Positions 33,424-41,244 of a DNA stretch of 41,244 nucleotides are shown piece by piece. The notes beneath the pieces are model-generated. The model saw only the letters and a program-made list of their open reading frames with translations. It searched no databases and was not told the origin of the DNA. Origin of the DNA: Promethearchaeota archaeon (GTDB lineage Archaea; Asgardarchaeota; Lokiarchaeia; Sigyniarchaeales; SOKP01); assembly GCA_011364925.1 (NCBI GenBank), contig RDOA01000030.1, forward strand, positions 1 through 41,244. Reading direction: 5' to 3'. Numbering within the stretch: position 1 is the first letter of the stretch; every line of letters begins with the position of its first letter. Position numbers and translations under genes: made by a program.

Positions 33424-34926
33424 TTAAATCCTTACTAGAATATCATGAGTGTTCATATAATCCTTTAAGTCTTTAATTTTCAAAAGATTATAATGGAATA
33501 ATGAAGCTGCTAGAACTGCTTCAGCTCCGTTATTGATAGCTTCAATGAAATGGTCTTTATTACCAGCCCCACCAGACGCAATTACGGGTACAGAAACTCT
33601 ATCTGTTATAGCTCGAATCAGGTCAAGATCATATCCTTGACTTGTTCCGTCTCTATCCATACTTGTTACTAACAGCTCTCCCGCTCCTTTTTCAACAACT
33701 AATTTTGCCCATTCTAACACATCGAGACCAGTGGGTTTAGTACCACTATGTGAATATACTTCCCACGATTGACCCTTTTTCTTTGCGTCAATTGCGACGA
33801 CGATGCACTGAGCTCCGAATTTATTCGCTCCTTTAGTTATTAAATTTGGATCTTCTATCGCCGCTGAATTTATACTCACTTTTTCAGCTCCAGCTTTGAT
33901 TATTGCTGTCATGTCCTCGATTGTTTTAATTCCTCCACCAACTGTAAGTGGAATGTATACTTCTTCGGCAACGGAACGAATCGTATTGAGCATACTTTTT
34001 CGTCCTTCTAATGTAGCCGATATGTCTAAAAAAACTAACTCATCTGCGCCACTCTCGTTGTAATATTGAGCAAGTTCAACTGGGTCTCCACTATCTCGTA
34101 ATTCTTTGAACTTTATCCCTTTAACAACTCTTCCATTTTTCACATCAAGACAAGGGATAATCCGTCGTACTAAATGAGAACCATGAAGCTTATCTAGGAA
34201 CGAGCTTAATGTTTCAATTGCAATACTTCCATCATATAATGCTTTCCCTACTATTACTCCATCTGAAAAATTTAGCGCATCTTCTACATCTTTTATGTTT
34301 GATATTCCACCAGACGCAATAATTCTAGTGTTGATATTCTTTTTCTCCCTCAATTCCAAATAAAGCTCTGTATTTAAACCAGAAGAGGTACCATCTCTCA
34401 TTATGTCAGTAACAATGAAATCGCGTATTCCTACGTTTTCCAGTTTAGAAAGCGCGTCAAAAACGTTTAGATTTGTATCATACTGCCATCCTTTAGTACG
34501 AACTGTTTTATTGGAGGAATCTAAAGCAATTGCAATTTTCCTTCCATACTTTTTCGATAAATCTTCCAAAAGGTTATTATCCTCAAAAGCAACAGTACCT
34601 AGTATTATTCGGTCGGCTCCCTGAATTAACAACTCATCTATCACATCAACGCTTCGGATGCCACCACCAATCTGTAACTTGATTCCGGCTTTTTTTGACA
34701 AATTAAGTAAGTTTAAAATTTTAGAATAGCTAGCATTGTTCCGATAATCTCCTGTCAATGCTCCGTCTAGGTTGATAATGTGAACCCACAAAGCACCAGC
34801 TTCTATGAAGTGTCCTAAAATAGCTACTGGATCGTCAGAATATGTGGTTTGTTTTAAATAGTCCCCCTGAATAAGTCTAACAACTCGTCCTTCCCTTATA
34901 TCAATAGCAGGTATTACAGTTTTCAT
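33424..34926 (-). CDS. hisAF: HisA-HisF fusion protein
   Basis: One uninterrupted 500-residue frame contains two complete (beta/alpha)8 barrels. Residues 1 to about 247 are HisA (VIPAIDIREGRVVRLIQGDY; LQIGGGIRSVDVIDELL; FIVTDIMRDGTSSG; IIASGGISN), the ProFAR isomerase. Residues about 253-500 are HisF (RRIIPCLDVKNGRVVKGIKF with D261; LTVGGGIKT; VVAIDAKKKGQ with D380; MDRDGTSQGYDLDL; VIASGGAGN), the cyclase subunit of imidazole glycerol phosphate synthase. The junction KLHGSHLVRR has no ATG, GTG or TTG in frame, so HisF can only be made as part of the fusion. It is the last gene of the his operon, just downstream of hisH, its glutaminase partner. Confidence 0.95.
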   Translation of the reverse strand: MKTVIPAIDIREGRVVRLIQGDYLKQTTYSDDPVAILGHFIEAGALWVHIINLDGALTGDYRNNASYSKILNLLNLSKKAGIKLQIGGGIRSVDVIDELLIQGADRIILGTVAFEDNNLLEDLSKKYGRKIAIALDSSNKTVRTKGWQYDTNLNVFDALSKLENVGIRDFIVTDIMRDGTSSGLNTELYLELREKKNINTRIIASGGISNIKDVEDALNFSDGVIVGKALYDGSIAIETLSSFLDKLHGSHLVRRIIPCLDVKNGRVVKGIKFKELRDSGDPVELAQYYNESGADELVFLDISATLEGRKSMLNTIRSVAEEVYIPLTVGGGIKTIEDMTAIIKAGAEKVSINSAAIEDPNLITKGANKFGAQCIVVAIDAKKKGQSWEVYSHSGTKPTGLDVLEWAKLVVEKGAGELLVTSMDRDGTSQGYDLDLIRAITDRVSVPVIASGGAGNKDHFIEAINNGAEAVLAASLFHYNLLKIKDLKDYMNTHDILVRI

Positions 34927-34931
34927 ATTTC

Positions 34932-35531
34932 TTACACCTTATCTTTTAGCGATTCAACCCAATATTTCAAGATACTTTCTCCTAATGTTTTACTTTTCTC
35001 TGGGTGGAACTGGATTGCTAAGATCGTTCCGTACTTAAAAATAACTCCAAATTTAATCCCATGTAAGGTAAATGCAATCATAGAAGTTTTATCAGCCGCG
35101 TCACAGTAGTATGTGTGGTTAAAGTAAGCAAATCCCGAAAAGTATGGCTCTTTTATAGAAATGACGCGGTTCCAACCTGTGTGTGGCACTCGAATCATAC
35201 CAGTAAAGCTCAATTTTTTCACGCTTCCCGGAATAATTCCTAATCCCTCAAAACCTGGGCTTTCTTCTGATTTGCTAAATAATAGTTGTAAACCTAAACA
35301 GATTCCTAAAGTTGGAGTTTTAGGAATAATCTGTTTTAACAGTTCAAAAAGATCTTTTTTCCTTAGTTCTTGAACTGCGTCTCCAAAAGCGCCTACACCT
35401 GGTAAAACAATCCCTAATGCTCCTTTGATTTTATGTTTTTCATTAGAGATTATCACATCAGGGTAAAACCGTTGTAAAGACCGTTGAACAGAACGTAAAT
35501 TCCCACTTCCATAATCGATTATTGTGATCAT
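34932..35531 (-). CDS. hisH: Imidazole glycerol phosphate synthase, glutaminase subunit
   Basis: A 199-residue class I glutamine amidotransferase that supplies ammonia to the HisF barrel. It has MITIIDYGSGNLRSV at the start, the oxyanion segment GIVLPGVGAFGDA, the nucleophile C78 in GICLGLQLL and the His-Glu pair in IQFHPEKS. The start is ATG 35531, after AAAGGA, rather than the frame's first ATG at 35558. It lies between hisB and the hisA-hisF fusion, five bases from the latter. Confidence 0.95.
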   Translation of the reverse strand: MITIIDYGSGNLRSVQRSLQRFYPDVIISNEKHKIKGALGIVLPGVGAFGDAVQELRKKDLFELLKQIIPKTPTLGICLGLQLLFSKSEESPGFEGLGIIPGSVKKLSFTGMIRVPHTGWNRVISIKEPYFSGFAYFNHTYYCDAADKTSMIAFTLHGIKFGVIFKYGTILAIQFHPEKSKTLGESILKYWVESLKDKV

Positions 35532-35570
35532 TAGTAAATCCTTTAACTGATCGAACAAATATTTAATTTC

Positions 35571-36176
35571 TTATAATGTTCCCTTAGTAGATGGAACACT
35601 GTTTCGTCGTTTAGGGTTAAACCTAGATGCCATATCCAGAGAAGAGCCAAGAGCCTTAAAAACAGACTCTGCTATGTGATGATCGTCTTTTCCAGAAAGT
35701 ACCTTAACATGAAGTGTTATACCGGCGTGGACTGCAAATGTTTGTAAAAAATGTTCTACTAAGGTAAGTGGTATTAACTCGTCTTGAACTTTCCCTAAAT
35801 ATGTACCAGTCCAAGGGATATCGATACTTGAATATGGTCGGTTTGAAAAATCAACAACTACTAAGGCAAGGGCGTCATCCATCGGTACATACGAAAAACC
35901 AATGCGAGTTATTCCAGTTTTATCTCCAATTGCTTGTTTGAAAGCCGCACCTAGTACTATTCCCACATCTTCTATGGTATGATGAGTATCAACATGTAAA
36001 TCCCCTTGAGCCTTTACTTCAATATCAAATGTCCCATGAACAGCGATATGATCTAACATATGGTCCAAAAATCCAACACCCGTATTTATATTAGAATTTC
36101 CAGAACCATCGATATTCAACAAAACTCTAACATTTGTTTCTTTAGTTGTTCTTTCTTGAGTAGACTTGCGATCCAT
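35571..36176 (-). CDS. hisB: Imidazoleglycerol-phosphate dehydratase
   Basis: A 201-residue monofunctional IGPD. Family features are NVRVLLNIDGSGNSNINTGV, FLDHMLDHIAVHG, VDTHHTIEDVGIVLG and KDDHHIAESVFKALG, carrying the histidines and acids that bind two manganese ions. ATG 36176 follows a GGTGG ribosome-binding site lying inside the end of hisC and is preferred over an upstream ATG (36215) that would overlap hisC by 38 bases. No histidinol-phosphatase domain is fused, unlike enterobacterial HisB. Confidence 0.95.
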   Translation of the reverse strand: MDRKSTQERTTKETNVRVLLNIDGSGNSNINTGVGFLDHMLDHIAVHGTFDIEVKAQGDLHVDTHHTIEDVGIVLGAAFKQAIGDKTGITRIGFSYVPMDDALALVVVDFSNRPYSSIDIPWTGTYLGKVQDELIPLTLVEHFLQTFAVHAGITLHVKVLSGKDDHHIAESVFKALGSSLDMASRFNPKRRNSVPSTKGTL

Positions 36177-36177
36177 T

Positions 36178-37302
36178 TTAATTTCCACCTTTGAAAAATA
36201 ATTTGATTTTATCAATAACTTTTTCCATATTTTCTTGTAGACCGATGCTAATCCTTAGATTATTAACCATATCCTGTGATGAATAATAACGTACAAGAAT
36301 CCCTTTCGAATATAAATATTCGTAAAGGCTTTTTGCTACTTCTGGAGTTTCAAATGTGAGTAAAATATAGCAAGCTTCACTCCGATGAATCCAGAATGCT
36401 TTATTTTGATTTTGAATTAATTTAAGTTGATTAATAAACCATTCTCTTGTTTTTTTAATTTCAATTATTCGTTTCTCCACTAAATGACTTGATAAGGCTG
36501 CTATCGCCGCTTTTTGTCCAGCAATATTAACATTGTAAGGCTGTTTGATCGACACTAAGACTTTTCGGATATCGTTTGGTATTATCCCGTACCCCACGCG
36601 TAGCCCACCTAAACCATAAGCCTTGCTAAATGTTCGAAGAACAACAATATTATCGTATTGAGGGATCCAATTAGCTAAACTCTGATAATTTGAGAATTCT
36701 ATGTACGCTTCGTCAACAATCAATAATATTGGGAGAGAAACTAAGGACTCAACAAACTTTTCAGATAAAACTGTTCCATCAGGGTTATTTGGACGAGCGA
36801 TAAAAACTATTTTTGCATGTTTGGCTGCATCTAAAAATTTAGCCTCGTCGAGGATATAGCGAGCAAAAGATTCATCTTTAACTAGCTGCATGGGAACGGT
36901 TACGTGCTTAATTCCGTAGACTTGAGATAAAAACGAAATCATACCAAAAGTGGGAGAAACGGAGAGTATTGAATCATAGGGATTTGCGTAAGCTTTAATG
37001 AGCAATTCAATCAACTCGTCAGATCCAGAACCTACAATAATGTTGTTGGCAATCAAATTCTCTTTAATTGCTATACTCTGAATTAAGATTGAACATAAGG
37101 GATCTGGATAGAAATTAATTCTCTTGAGAGAACTTAACGCATTCAATACTTCTGGCAATGGTTCATAAGGGTTTTCATTTCCGTCAAGTTTAATAATATT
37201 CGAAGTAGGAATCTGTAATTCTTCGGCAATTGCTTCTAAAGGTTTCACTCCGCTATAACTTTTGATTGAAGCTAAACGGTCTACGATTTTAATTTTCGTC
37301 AT
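36178..37302 (-). CDS. hisC: Histidinol-phosphate aminotransferase
   Basis: A 374-residue class I/II PLP aminotransferase. It has NIIKLDGNENPYEPLPEV near residue 36, VGSGSDELIELLIKAYANP, FIARPNNPDGT, VDEAYIEFS and LRTFSKAYGLGGLRVGYG with the PLP lysine, and ends NLRISIGLQENM. It converts imidazole acetol phosphate to histidinol phosphate. Its ATG overlaps the hisD stop by four bases, and hisB starts one base after its stop, so the three genes are translationally linked. Confidence 0.94.
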   Translation of the reverse strand: MTKIKIVDRLASIKSYSGVKPLEAIAEELQIPTSNIIKLDGNENPYEPLPEVLNALSSLKRINFYPDPLCSILIQSIAIKENLIANNIIVGSGSDELIELLIKAYANPYDSILSVSPTFGMISFLSQVYGIKHVTVPMQLVKDESFARYILDEAKFLDAAKHAKIVFIARPNNPDGTVLSEKFVESLVSLPILLIVDEAYIEFSNYQSLANWIPQYDNIVVLRTFSKAYGLGGLRVGYGIIPNDIRKVLVSIKQPYNVNIAGQKAAIAALSSHLVEKRIIEIKKTREWFINQLKLIQNQNKAFWIHRSEACYILLTFETPEVAKSLYEYLYSKGILVRYYSSQDMVNNLRISIGLQENMEKVIDKIKLFFKGGN

Positions 37303-38624
37303 TTAGCTCTCCTCCTTGCAGCCTCTGAATGAGCTTGAAGTTCTTCATTACAAGCTAATATTTCAGCTAATGGTGCAATCGATTTTACCGTCTTCCTGTC
37401 CAGTGATATAAGACTTGTGATTTTGATGAAATCTAAAACTGAAAGTGGTGATGAAAATTTTGCCGCACCACCTGTTGGCATTACATGACTTGGTCCAGCG
37501 ATATAATCCCCCAATACTTCGCAAGAAGATTCACCTAAGAAAATGCCCCCTGAATTTTTAATAAGCGGTAATAATTGTTTGGGATTCTTAGTTACAATAG
37601 ACAAGTGTTCTGGTGCGAAATTGTTAATCACAGATATCGCTCTCTCAGTGTTAGGAACTACTATAATACCTCCATTATTTTTTATCGCGTGTTCTGCGAT
37701 TTTGGAACGAGGTAAATCGAGAATTTGTTCCTCTATTGATGTCTTGACCTTATTTGCAAGATCTTGGCTTGTTGTCATTATTATCGGAATTGCTAAATAA
37801 TCGTGTTCAGCTTGAGCAAGCAAATCAGAAGCAATCAATTCTGGATTTGCAGACTCGTCAGCGAAAATTACAGCTTCTGTTGGACCGGCTATACCGTCAA
37901 TTCCAACGATGCCAAAAACCTCTCGCTTAGCTAAAGTCACGAAAATATTCCCTGGACCAATGATTTTATTAACTCTTGGAACTGATTCGGTACCATATGC
38001 AAGTGCCGCAATTGCTTGGACACCACCAATTTGTAAAACCCTGATTTTAGCATGCAGAGCGCGCATTATATTACACGTTGCTAAAATTATAGAAGAAATT
38101 GGAGGTGGACTTACTATCACTATTTCTTCAACTCCCGCAACAATCGCGGGAGAAACACTGTGGATGACGGTTGATGGAAGAGGAGCAGATCCTCCCGGTA
38201 TGTAAAAACCCACTCGCCGAATAGGATTAATAATTTGACCTAAAGATCCTCCTAATTCTTCTGTGGTCCAAGACGACAAAGGTTGCTTTCTGTGAAATGC
38301 TATTATTCTATCTCTAGCACTGATTAATGCTTCCTTTACCTCATCATCTATAGACTTCAAGGCAGATTCCAATAACTCCGATTTGACTTCAATGTTGTCG
38401 CCAATATTGAATTTATCTAGTTTCCAAGTCCATTCAATAAGAGCACGATCTCCTTTTTCAATAACATCGTTAATAATTTTCCTGACAACTTCTAGAGGAG
38501 TTAAAAGTTCTCCAAATAGTTCAACAATCCGTTTGTTTATTTGAGGTGGAAGAGATACATCTACGATTGGTTTGCGTATCAGTATAGATTTCTCAGCTTC
38601 TTCGACAGTGTAGATTGGAATCAT
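37299..38624 (-). CDS. hisD: Histidinol dehydrogenase
   Basis: A 441-residue zinc enzyme catalysing the last two oxidations to histidine with NAD. Characteristic stretches are RRVGFYIPGGSAPLPSTV, VAGVEEIVIVSPP, QAIAALAYGTESVPRVNKI, GPGNIFVTLAKREVFG, GIAGPTEAVIFADE, the zinc/active-site region LLAQAEHDYLA, NFAPEHLSI, GEYIAGPSHVMPTGG-like sequence (here GDYIAGPSHVMPTGGAA) and the C-terminal LQAHSEAARRR. ATGA overlaps join it to hisG upstream (38624-38621) and hisC downstream. Confidence 0.95.
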   Translation of the reverse strand: MIPIYTVEEAEKSILIRKPIVDVSLPPQINKRIVELFGELLTPLEVVRKIINDVIEKGDRALIEWTWKLDKFNIGDNIEVKSELLESALKSIDDEVKEALISARDRIIAFHRKQPLSSWTTEELGGSLGQIINPIRRVGFYIPGGSAPLPSTVIHSVSPAIVAGVEEIVIVSPPPISSIILATCNIMRALHAKIRVLQIGGVQAIAALAYGTESVPRVNKIIGPGNIFVTLAKREVFGIVGIDGIAGPTEAVIFADESANPELIASDLLAQAEHDYLAIPIIMTTSQDLANKVKTSIEEQILDLPRSKIAEHAIKNNGGIIVVPNTERAISVINNFAPEHLSIVTKNPKQLLPLIKNSGGIFLGESSCEVLGDYIAGPSHVMPTGGAAKFSSPLSVLDFIKITSLISLDRKTVKSIAPLAEILACNEELQAHSEAARRRAK

Positions 38625-39634
38625 TGATTTCCCTCTAACTTCTTTAATAATTTTTTATATCGCAATGGTTCTTCTTCGAAGATGAATAAAGTAGGACTCA
38701 CGACAACCCCACTTCCGCCAATTTCTCTCAGTGCTCTTATAGTTTTAGTCAATTTTCTTTTTTCAACAATAATATGAATCGCAAACCAAGATCCGCCTTC
38801 TGAAGAAATGATTGGAGAGATAGTGGGACCTTGAAGCCCCATTAAATTTTCTTTCGTAGCCATTTTTTCTGCAATACTTTCTGGAGTGTCTCCTCGCATA
38901 TTTATAAATACTGATATGTAATTTTTTGCTCTTAGAGTAGCTTCAAAGTATTCTAAAAATGTTCGACAGGTTTCTAATGCGTGTTGATTTTCTCTTAAGA
39001 TCTTTCGGTTTGCTATAAAGCAGGCTTGTGATTGAAGAATACAACCCCCTTGAATTCTTTTAAGCCTATTATCTTTTAGTGTTTGGCCTGTCGAGACTAA
39101 ATCGACAATAATATCTGAATATCCCAACGTAGGAGCGACTTCTAACGTACCTTCAGCCCGAAATAACTCAAAATCTAACCCGCGCTTATTGAAAAACTCT
39201 TTTGTTAATGAGGGGAATTTAGAGGCAACGCGTAAAGTTTGATTGCGTTGTTTTAACTCTTCTATTGAATTTTCAACCCAATTTTCCGGTATTGATACTT
39301 CAAGAGTACAACTTCCGAAACCTAAATCCTCGTGAACAATTAGAATTTTATTTGGTTCTTGCAGTGTAAACTCAGATAATATATCCAAACCAACTATACC
39401 ATAGGCTAAATTCCCGTTAAAAACTCCGTTGATTATATCCTTTTGCCGTTGAAATACTACTTGAATATCTGGGAATCCTTCTAACCATCCTATATATTGC
39501 TGTCGATTTCTTCTAAGTTTGAATCCACAAGAATCAAGAAAGTCTTGAGTTTCGGAAGTCATACGACCTTTTGAGGGAATTCCAATTCGTAGCATATTCG
39601 AATTAAAATTCTCCTTTACATTTTTAGTTTCCAT
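38621..39634 (-). CDS. hisG: ATP phosphoribosyltransferase, long form
   Basis: A 337-residue HisG, first enzyme of histidine synthesis (ATP + PRPP). It has LRIGIPSKGRM, FQRQKDIINGV, AYGIVGLDIL, FRAEGTLEVAPTLGYSDIIVDLVSTGQTL (PRPP loop) and a C-terminal ACT-like domain of about 80 residues (LMGLQGPTISPI; GSWFAIHIIVEKRKL; GGSGVVVSPTLFIFEEE). That domain marks the long, histidine-feedback-inhibited form, so no HisZ is needed. A GGGAGGAG ribosome-binding site eight bases before ATG 39634 supports this start, although it overlaps hisIE by 11 bases and adds 13 residues before the usual beginning. Confidence 0.94.
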   Translation of the reverse strand: METKNVKENFNSNMLRIGIPSKGRMTSETQDFLDSCGFKLRRNRQQYIGWLEGFPDIQVVFQRQKDIINGVFNGNLAYGIVGLDILSEFTLQEPNKILIVHEDLGFGSCTLEVSIPENWVENSIEELKQRNQTLRVASKFPSLTKEFFNKRGLDFELFRAEGTLEVAPTLGYSDIIVDLVSTGQTLKDNRLKRIQGGCILQSQACFIANRKILRENQHALETCRTFLEYFEATLRAKNYISVFINMRGDTPESIAEKMATKENLMGLQGPTISPIISSEGGSWFAIHIIVEKRKLTKTIRALREIGGSGVVVSPTLFIFEEEPLRYKKLLKKLEGNQ

Positions 39635-40544
39635 TTTTTCTTCTCCTCCCTAATTCATTTAAAATATCTTGAAGTTTTACCCCTTCTTTAACCATTAAAA
39701 CTAAAATAAAATAGGTTAAGTCGGCGATTTCCCAAACAAGATTATCCTTATCAGTAAAATTTATTACTTCCAAGCTTTCTTCCCTGATTTTTGAAAGCAA
39801 CAATTTATTGTCTTCAGCAAGCTTCTTAGTATATGAATTTGATACTATCGAGTTCTGAATTCTATCGACAAGTATATCATAGAGAACGCTTAAGGAAAAT
39901 TCTCTATCTTGAAAACATGAATACGTTCCTCTGTGGCAAGCGTATCCACATTGCTCAACTTTGAACAAAAGAGCGTCGTTATCGCAATCAAAAAGAATCT
40001 TTTTTACTTCCTGATAATTTCCCGACTCCTCTCCCTTTATCCATAACTTATTTCTTGATCTACTGAAATATATCGCTTTCCGAGTGCTTATCGTCTGCTT
40101 CAAAGATGCTTTAGAAGAATAAGCAAGCATTAGCACTGTATTGTTTTGATCTTGCACTACAGTTGGAATTAGTCCTAATCCTTTATCAAAATCGAGAAGA
40201 TTGAGCAAGCGATCGTCTATGAAAGAATATTTCATTTTTGGATCAAAATGAATAACTTCATAAAAATTAGGCAAGGAGTGAGTAATAATTCTGTAACCAT
40301 TTTTGTTTAACAGGTTTTTCAACTCGCACTGGTCCTCATCAATATCAAATCTAAGATCTAAATTCCAAAATAGTTCATTCAATTCTTTCCTATTTAAGTC
40401 TAGCTTTTCGAAATCCTGCTTATTGATTTTAATTACTAAAGTACAAAAGACATCCCAATTCCGCTTTGTAAAGATTTCTTTAATAAACTGAGTAATTCCT
40501 CCAACCTGTTCAAGATCTTTCATTTCCACTTTTAATATTAACAT
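39624..40544 (-). CDS. hisIE: HisI-HisE bifunctional enzyme with extra N-terminal domain
   Basis: A 306-residue protein. Residues about 118-215 are phosphoribosyl-AMP cyclohydrolase (VLMLAYSSKASLKQT; AIYFSRSRNKLWIKGEESGN; the magnesium site DCDND at 186-190; zinc ligands C203 and C210 in YACHRGTYSCF). Residues about 220-300 are phosphoribosyl-ATP pyrophosphatase (KIREESLEVINFTDKDNLVW; EIADLTYFILVLMVKEGV). Residues 1 to about 115 are an extra, apparently soluble domain (IKEIFTKRNWDVFCTLVIK; LKNLLNKNGYRIITHSLPNF) that I do not recognise and that usual HisIE proteins of about 200 residues lack. It is first in the operon, after GGGGGTGA, and its leader carries the histidine-rich reading frame. 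Confidence 0.92.
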   Translation of the reverse strand: MLILKVEMKDLEQVGGITQFIKEIFTKRNWDVFCTLVIKINKQDFEKLDLNRKELNELFWNLDLRFDIDEDQCELKNLLNKNGYRIITHSLPNFYEVIHFDPKMKYSFIDDRLLNLLDFDKGLGLIPTVVQDQNNTVLMLAYSSKASLKQTISTRKAIYFSRSRNKLWIKGEESGNYQEVKKILFDCDNDALLFKVEQCGYACHRGTYSCFQDREFSLSVLYDILVDRIQNSIVSNSYTKKLAEDNKLLLSKIREESLEVINFTDKDNLVWEIADLTYFILVLMVKEGVKLQDILNELGRRRKNGN

Positions 40545-40557
40545 AATTCACCCCCAA

Positions 40558-40577
40558 AACTGAATAAGATTTCAGTT
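40558..40577 (-). promoter_or_regulatory. Hairpin directly before the hisIE ribosome-binding site
   Basis: On the minus strand AACTGAA (40577-40571) and TTCAGTT (40564-40558) form a 7-bp hairpin with a six-base loop. TT and the Shine-Dalgarno GGGGGTGA follow. It could affect hisIE translation or be the second arm of an attenuator. Confidence 0.45.
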
Positions 40578-40583
40578 CGATTT

Positions 40584-40632
40584 AATTCCAATGAATTATC
40601 GAATATAAGTACTACCTTAATTCATCGGAATT
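40584..40632 (-). promoter_or_regulatory. 15-bp hairpin overlapping the leader stop codon
   Basis: Minus-strand AATTCCGATGAATTA (40632-40618) pairs with TAATTCATTGGAATT (40598-40584): 15 consecutive pairs with a single G-U and a 19-base loop. It starts within the TAA of the histidine-rich leader frame. A ribosome stalled on the His codons would cover its 5' arm, so its formation could depend on histidyl-tRNA supply. Confidence 0.65.
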
Positions 40633-40777
40633 ATTCATGATGCTGATGATGATGAAAATGTGAAAATTGTTGAGAACAATTTAGTATTTCATCCGATCGA
40701 ATAACTATAGTGTTATTTGACCCATCAACTACAACTAAACTCAATAGATTTACTCCTTTCTTTATTAGAAATCCCAT
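40631..40777 (-). CDS. Histidine-rich leader peptide of the his operon
   Basis: A 48-codon frame from ATG 40777 to TAA 40633-40631, or 37 codons from TTG 40744 with a better Shine-Dalgarno (AAAGGAG). It lies upstream of hisIE on the same strand and ends SHFHHHQHHE: six His codons, five CAT and one following Phe, within the last nine sense codons. Position, length, strand, the His run at the end and the 15-bp hairpin opening at its stop codon are what enterobacterial his leader peptides show. In those systems ribosome stalling at His codons controls attenuation. A small 8-bp hairpin (40664-40682) precedes the His run. The alternative is a small metal-binding protein. No homologue search was possible. 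Confidence 0.6.
   Translation of the reverse strand: MGFLIKKGVNLLSLVVVDGSNNTIVIRSDEILNCSQQFSHFHHHQHHE
40664..40682 (-). promoter_or_regulatory. 8-bp hairpin before the His codons
   Basis: Minus-strand AAATTGTT (40682-40675) and AACAATTT (40671-40664) form a perfect 8-bp stem with the three-base loop CTC inside the leader frame, just upstream of the His codon run. It may act as a pause hairpin. Confidence 0.4.
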
Positions 40778-40894
40778 ATCAATTACCTATTGAGTTCTTA
40801 TTCTATAGATAAAAATGTATTTTATTGACTACTATATGCACCGTAAACTAAAAAAGTTAACTATGATGGAATGATTTCATATAACTGAAATTTA

Positions 40895-40926
40895 GTCTGG
40901 TTAGACCTTTTTTAGTTGGACTAACT
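40895..40926. promoter_or_regulatory. Paired palindromes between his operon and kdd
   Basis: GTCTGGTTAGAC (40895-40906) and TTAGTTGGACTAA (40912-40924, extendable to AGTT-GGACT-AACT at 40914-40926) are two adjacent short palindromes with related arms (TTAGT, GGTTAGAC, GGACTAAC). They lie in the divergent promoter region and are candidate operators for kdd, his or both. Confidence 0.45.
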
Positions 40927-40974
40927 ATTTTAAAAAATTTATAATTCTAACGATTCTTAAGTTAGATCAGATTC

Positions 40975-40986
40975 TTTTATAAAAAA
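40975..40986 (+). promoter_or_regulatory. TATA box of kdd
   Basis: TTTTATAAAAAA lies about 30-40 bases upstream of the kdd ATG, the position expected of an archaeal TATA box with a short leader carrying GGAG (41003-41006). Confidence 0.5.
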
Positions 40987-41014
40987 TCCTATAGAAATAG
41001 ATGGAGTATATCCA

Positions 41015-41244
41015 ATGGTAAAAGGAAATAAGTATGGAACTCATCGAGTTATTGAACCTAAGGGAGCACTTCCTCAACCCGCACATAAAATTTCAAACGA
41101 CATGACCCTCTTTGATAATGAAATTCTAATAGATGTTAATTACTTAAACATCGATTCTGCAAGCTTTACTCAATTAATGGAAGAAGCAGACGGAGATGTA
41201 GAAAAAATCAAGACTAAAATCTTGGAAATAGTCCAAAAGCGGGG
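41015..41244 (+). CDS. kdd: L-erythro-3,5-diaminohexanoate dehydrogenase, 5' part
   Basis: Only the first 76 residues are in the window; the frame is open at the right edge. The beginning GNKYGTHRVIEPKGALPQPA is the conserved N-terminus of Kdd. It is followed by HKISNDMTLFDNEILIDVNY and NIDSASFTQLMEEA, also as in that family. Kdd oxidatively deaminates L-erythro-3,5-diaminohexanoate to 5-amino-3-oxohexanoate with NAD(P), the step directly before Kce in lysine fermentation. ATG 41015 has GGAG eight bases upstream; an earlier ATG (41001) stops after six codons. It is divergent from the his operon. Kce is encoded about 11 kb to the left. Confidence 0.85.
   Translation, partial: MVKGNKYGTHRVIEPKGALPQPAHKISNDMTLFDNEILIDVNYLNIDSASFTQLMEEADGDVEKIKTKILEIVQKR

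Follow-up and report, generated by a model that had tools for sequence, protein, structure and literature searches.

Does an archaeal histidine operon carry a leader-peptide attenuator? Attenuation of amino-acid operons by the translating ribosome is a classic bacterial mechanism, and the question is raised by a 41,244-nucleotide contig, analysed in its full length and referred to here as the window, of a 3.9-Mb Lokiarchaeal genome. The window contains a seven-gene his operon on the minus strand in the order hisIE-hisG-hisD-hisC-hisB-hisH-hisAF. Its first gene, hisIE (39624..40544), is the presumed first target of the regulation and encodes PRA-CH and PRA-PH domains, which bears out the original prediction of a his operon headed by hisIE. 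The gene is preceded by the Shine-Dalgarno sequence GGGGGTGA (40548..40555, minus strand), and hisG, hisD, hisC, hisB, hisH and hisA-F occupy the remainder of the operon (33424..39634, minus strand). HisA and HisF form a single 500-aa protein with two His_biosynth stretches (33424-34926).

Leader peptide and RNA structure in the window

The 48-codon frame ending in SHFHHHQHHE that had been predicted upstream of hisIE is present on the minus strand (MGFLIKKG...SHFHHHQHHE, 40777..40631). Its start codon is preceded by GGTAATTGAT, at the place where most relatives have GTGAAT, and its end holds the His-codon run CAT TTT CAT CAT CAT CAG CAT CAT (40637..40660, minus strand). Farther upstream lies AACTTTTTTAG (40848..40858, minus strand), a putative promoter box; an identical or similar box is found in five genomes, 76-98 nt 5' of the leader start.

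Such a frame might be no more than a His-rich ORF end that happens to lie among ordinary AT-rich hairpins, since AT-rich intergenic DNA readily folds and CAT easily arises. The frequency of similar ORF ends was estimated in simulated sequence from a third-order Markov model built from the window. ORF tails with at least six His in the last 10 codons were absent from ~2.5 Mb of this sequence, and tails with at least four occurred at 6.5 per Mb, both strands counted. Among the fetched loci, only one of the 826 non-his ORFs has an ORF with a His-rich end in the 150 nt ahead of it.

The segment 40540-40790 folds at -59.6 kcal/mol (z = -3.7), and none of 200 shuffles was equally stable. The consensus fold of five homologous sequences consists of five helices, P1 to P5, given here with their minus-strand positions in the window. 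In P1, supported by the consensus fold and pair counts, AACTCAATA (40788..40796), upstream of the leader start, pairs with TATTGAGTT (40738..40746); this helix is nearly invariant around the leader start and hence provides weak covariation evidence. P2 is the hairpin AATAAC/GTTATT (40700..40717), in which four pairs are changed on both sides. P3 joins region 1, GATGAAA (40687..40693), to region 2 within the His codons (40648..40654), both arms being supported by pair counts. The 5' arm of P4 begins with the leader stop codon (40618..40633; 97% of cells paired, three pairs changed on both sides) and its 3' arm is TAATTCATTGGAATTA (40583..40598; fold and pair counts). P5 is the hairpin AACTGAA/TTCAGTT (40558..40577), likewise supported by pair counts; its arms (40577-40571/40564-40558) end two bases before the hisIE Shine-Dalgarno sequence, and the motif has one copy only in the genome.

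The three hairpins of the original prediction fared differently. The 15-bp hairpin starting in the stop codon corresponds to P4, which has 16 consecutive pairs in the minimum free energy structure (40633-40618 with 40598-40583), and the 7-bp hairpin that was placed two bases before the ribosome-binding site is P5. The 8-bp hairpin ahead of the His-codon run is real in the window (40682-40675/40671-40664) but is not conserved, unlike P3 (40693-40687 with 40654-40648), whose 3' arm is formed by the His codons themselves.

Conservation among hisIE relatives

Homologues were found by a hisIE search through the family. The unusual N-terminal region of the window's HisIE is shared by relatives in G057 (75% identical), G061 (58%), G063 (54%), G020 (55%) and G071 (partial), and at convincing E-values it is confined to six genomes of the 228 in the phylum. 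The same element is found in G057, G061, G063 and G020, and a diverged version in G071, always before hisIE. All six leader tails are His-rich (SHFHHHQHHE, SHHLHHK, VHHWLHH, LHHWLHHE, AHHWHYHL and MHHFPTHK) and the His codons of the homologous tails are CAT every time, with His positions that shift between species. The cluster of His codons starts 18-27 nt upstream of the leader stop, from which the hisIE AUG of the six homologues is 89, 89, 90, 89, 86 and 89 nt away.

Up to about half of the bases differ among the five leaders of the window, G057, G061, G063 and G020. Frame 0 is open in all five of these diverged leaders, the other two sense frames contain 3-13 stops each, and the simulated probability of the frame remaining open is 3% at 51% divergence. 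Substitutions fall evenly on all codon positions, with no third-position excess; the peptide sequence as such is therefore hardly constrained, as expected if just the frame and the His codons matter. The conserved frame, together with a middle segment that is similar in the five leaders, would also be compatible with a working His-rich microprotein (for metal binding or similar) and incidental RNA folds. This explanation is at odds with the even substitution pattern, the mobile His positions and the covariation of the helices; moreover, the conserved middle overlies helix P2 and the leader peptide has no match in Pfam, and we regard a microprotein as very improbable.

Paired cells make up 93% of the consensus helices, a share that falls to 29-45% if the partner is displaced by 1-3 columns. 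Two-sided changes affect 11 pairs against 4.2 in shuffles (0/500), a shuffle figure that is not to be taken as a probability. The clearest compensations fall in P2 (C-G to G-C in G020), P4 (U-A to C-G) and P5 (G-C to A-U in G063). Derived from five good sequences of one family, all presumed metagenome assemblies, this covariation is good, although not exhaustive. A covariance model built on the His codons, P4 and P5 was run over 65 family genomes and gave a single strong match in each of exactly five (E-values of 1e-18 to 1e-23), before hisIE only; the next matches across the 65 genomes were no better than 0.13. The leader of G071 is too diverged for this model.

Conserved His codons and compensatory stem changes in relatives had been proposed as the check on the original prediction, and both were found. 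It had also named relatives whose his operons lack the His run and the hairpins as evidence against an attenuator. Most same-genus his operons do lack the element, but their hisIE is a different one, with another N-terminal region, and their intergenic region is much shorter. In seven genomes of the genus, a leaderless hisIE of the 405-aa type, which differs in its N-terminal part, follows a short intergenic region. The observation is confirmed as real and conserved, and the comparison of sequences supports a putative His-codon leader peptide with selected RNA structure ahead of an archaeal his operon, in which the sensor and its linkage to the operon are well supported.

Proposed mechanism and other Asgard leaders

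We consider it likely that the element is a cis-acting, ribosome-sensing attenuator of the his operon, and have higher confidence still that the His codons serve as its sensor. When charged tRNA-His is scarce, a ribosome would stall at the first His codons and break P3, with P4 left free to form because of the 18-27 nt that separate the first His codon from the stop. When histidine is plentiful, the ribosome would reach the stop codon and cover the 5' arm of P4. The altered fold would set the translation of hisIE, and hence of the operon, so that starvation turns it on and repletion turns it off. In a duplex test, from which rows with region 4 were left out, the 1:2 pairing (P3) is stronger than in shuffles in five of five sequences and the 2:3 pairing only in G061 and G020.

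HisG is present in 69 of 228 Asgard genomes, and when 108 starts of Asgard his transcription units were surveyed, two leader types besides that of the window came to light. Among these starts, His-rich ORF ends near the first his gene are found in the six homologues, G041, G039 and G119. In G041 and G039 the ORF end NPHHHKQHS lies ~130 nt before hisC of a his operon with another gene order (L097:5790-5891 and L098:5930-6036); the leader region contains U-runs of 5-6 and the upstream frame is not kept between the two genomes, so that its assignment as a His leader is tentative. A candidate Trp leader before trpE in G061 was rejected, as it lies within the preceding gene and overlaps it out of frame. 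Conservation with covariation refutes the chance explanation raised above, and the covariance model, Markov simulation, pair counts, Asgard survey and non-his ORF control jointly exclude it for practical purposes.

The best of the further types belongs to G119, a member of another, distant Asgard family, where a leader with the tail SHHHHIHHHL (MKCGIIKARGNLNSRIQNLIDLVSHHHHIHHHL) ends 97 nt before hisIE (L108:8225-8435). At the start of this leader, UGUGGCAUUAUCA can pair with the segment at the first His codon or, over 13 bases, with UGAUAAUGCCACA of the Shine-Dalgarno-proximal hairpin, adjoining the hisIE Shine-Dalgarno sequence; this 13-nt complement was matched by two of 5000 shuffles. In silico, the first pairing (1:2) of the ribosome-free leader has a probability of 0.90 and the Shine-Dalgarno core is 26% open, whereas with a ribosome stalled on the first His codons P(1:5) climbs from 0.08 to 0.94 and the accessibility of the core from 0.26 to 0.66. 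With the ribosome at the stop codon the picture is mixed (P(1:2) of 0.24), only the ribosome-free state being clearly off. On paper, the G119 leader would thus operate as a translational attenuator.

The output step of the window's own leader type is a separate matter. The likeness to the architecture of bacterial his attenuation that had been suggested for this locus holds for the His-codon leader peptide and the selected RNA; it fails for the intrinsic terminator, which is lacking, and for the unconserved 8-bp hairpin. From the leader stop to the hisIE AUG, U-runs in the six homologues do not exceed 4 nt (the longest being 3-4), and the Shine-Dalgarno-proximal hairpin is therefore not an intrinsic terminator. 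P5 leads into a short U-run and then GGGGG; an intrinsic terminator was rejected, and no antiterminator/terminator pair was found.

Three further candidates for the switch found no support in computations on the window's leader type. Constrained folding of a nested Shine-Dalgarno sequestration gave no consistent change in accessibility of the hisIE Shine-Dalgarno sequence among the stalled, stop-codon and ribosome-free states. When ribosome masks for the stalled and the stop-codon state were applied to the consensus fold, helices were lost and no alternative partner was gained. A pseudoknot between the P3 loop and the Shine-Dalgarno sequence was no better than with shuffled loops (P 0.31-0.82).

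The same His-codon sensor could instead act through premature transcription termination, either intrinsic in the enterobacterial style or mediated by the archaeal factor FttA/aCPSF1. The latter variant, in which RNA polymerase would continue uncoupled after release of the ribosome at the stop codon, is the main rival to a translational output. Transcription and translation are coupled in archaea, an FttA check on this coupling has been hypothesised (PMC11616081), P4 and P5 sit at the position expected of an attenuator, and the U-runs of the G041/G039 leader region fit this explanation as well. On the other hand, the polymerase would be uncoupled by a stalled ribosome too, GGGGG follows P5, and G119, like the window's type, has no U-run longer than 4 nt from stop to AUG. 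Overall, we find termination an unlikely output, and translation initiation or factor-dependent termination more likely than termination of the bacterial style. Two points favour control of translation initiation, namely the lack of an intrinsic terminator and the in silico switch of the G119 leader; for the window's own leader type we hold this output with moderate confidence.

The extended covarying structure, the near-invariance of P1 around the leader start and the failure of the computations to yield an alternative fold would all agree with P1-P5 being a riboswitch-like binding site for a protein or ligand, in which the His codons are secondary. Such a site leaves unexplained both the His codons in every homologue and the unrelated His leaders elsewhere among Asgard his operons, and it has no Rfam match; we judge it improbable to a high degree.

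Relation to known systems and history of the operon

The closest counterpart of the proposed attenuator is the proteobacterial hisL leader (RF00514, His_leader), in which a short ORF likewise precedes the first his gene and has a cluster of His codons just upstream of its stop; the His codons form a stem there as well, with further stems downstream. The window's element differs in having a Shine-Dalgarno-proximal hairpin in place of an intrinsic terminator, in the position of hisIE as first gene and in its archaeal host, and cmscan at E <= 1 gave no match to His_leader (RF00514) or T-box models. Candidate His-leader attenuators predicted by comparison in the Bacillus cereus group, Eubacteriales and Erysipelotrichales (PMC9413887) also have attenuator stems immediately downstream of a leader peptide with His codons, but they are bacterial and have terminator and antiterminator hairpins. 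Both terminator-type and RBS-sequestering attenuators have been described in bacteria (PMC9413887), and translational attenuation through a sequestered ribosome-binding site is known among some amino-acid attenuators (PMC9413887, PMC10219788). In ermC translational attenuation, too, a ribosome stalled on the leader ORF refolds the RNA near the Shine-Dalgarno sequence of the next gene, a scheme that G119 fits in silico; here, by contrast, the signal would be histidine supply and not a drug, and computation gave no consistent Shine-Dalgarno switch in the window's type. T-box elements, which are tRNA-sensing leaders, likewise sense amino-acid supply upstream of biosynthetic genes, but need no ORF.

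Archaeal amino-acid biosynthesis operons are also controlled by TrpY and TK0271, which are transcription regulator proteins and not leader peptides (PMC6737238). It has been stated in general terms that uORFs act via attenuation in archaea too (PMC10219788), and uORF candidates have been reported in Methanosarcina (PMC11456600). In agreement with the original prediction, which knew of no leader-peptide attenuator for an archaeal his operon, we found no description of an amino-acid leader-peptide attenuator in archaea in the open-access literature, where older reports may be missed; leader-peptide control of archaeal amino-acid operons has apparently been undescribed before. With a conserved Asgard case, a possible tuning of gene expression by leader-ORF translation becomes directly testable in these archaea, and its logic is reminiscent of the eukaryotic uORF control of amino-acid synthesis, Asgard archaea being relatives of eukaryotes.

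The his operon of the window appears to be of mixed origin. Its hisIE clusters with the G057 gene at a support of 0.99 (80% in the IE part), whereas hisG and hisD are nearest to those of leaderless genus-mates (72-79%). DNA similarity to G057 extends to 40870, and similarity to G017 and G013 stops at 40171 and restarts at ~40922. The gene trees point to joint movement of leader and hisIE, and the simplest reading is that both were exchanged as one cassette by recombination, which would make the operon a mosaic. The broader proposal, that Asgard archaea control histidine synthesis at translation initiation by ribosome-stalling leader peptides of several types and that the leader-hisIE cassette recombines between lineages, seems to us evenly poised.

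Several observations concern the his genes more generally. The divergent neighbour at 41015 (40923-41244 of the window) is also nearest to same-genus leaderless genomes. G061 and G063 (L083, L131 and L143) have a second HisG elsewhere, of the shorter kind found in leaderless family members, and G061 also has a second HisI elsewhere. A HisIE/HisG match is absent from many near-complete same-genus genomes (G004, G008, G009, G019 and others); the pathway is therefore patchy and probably lost in many Lokiarchaeal species. Finally, the N-terminal ~110 residues of HisIE before the HisI domain (40187-40544) are without a Pfam match, and G041 and G039 have a HisA-like domain fused to HisIE at the corresponding place, so that the N-terminal part in the window may be a shrunken HisA remnant.
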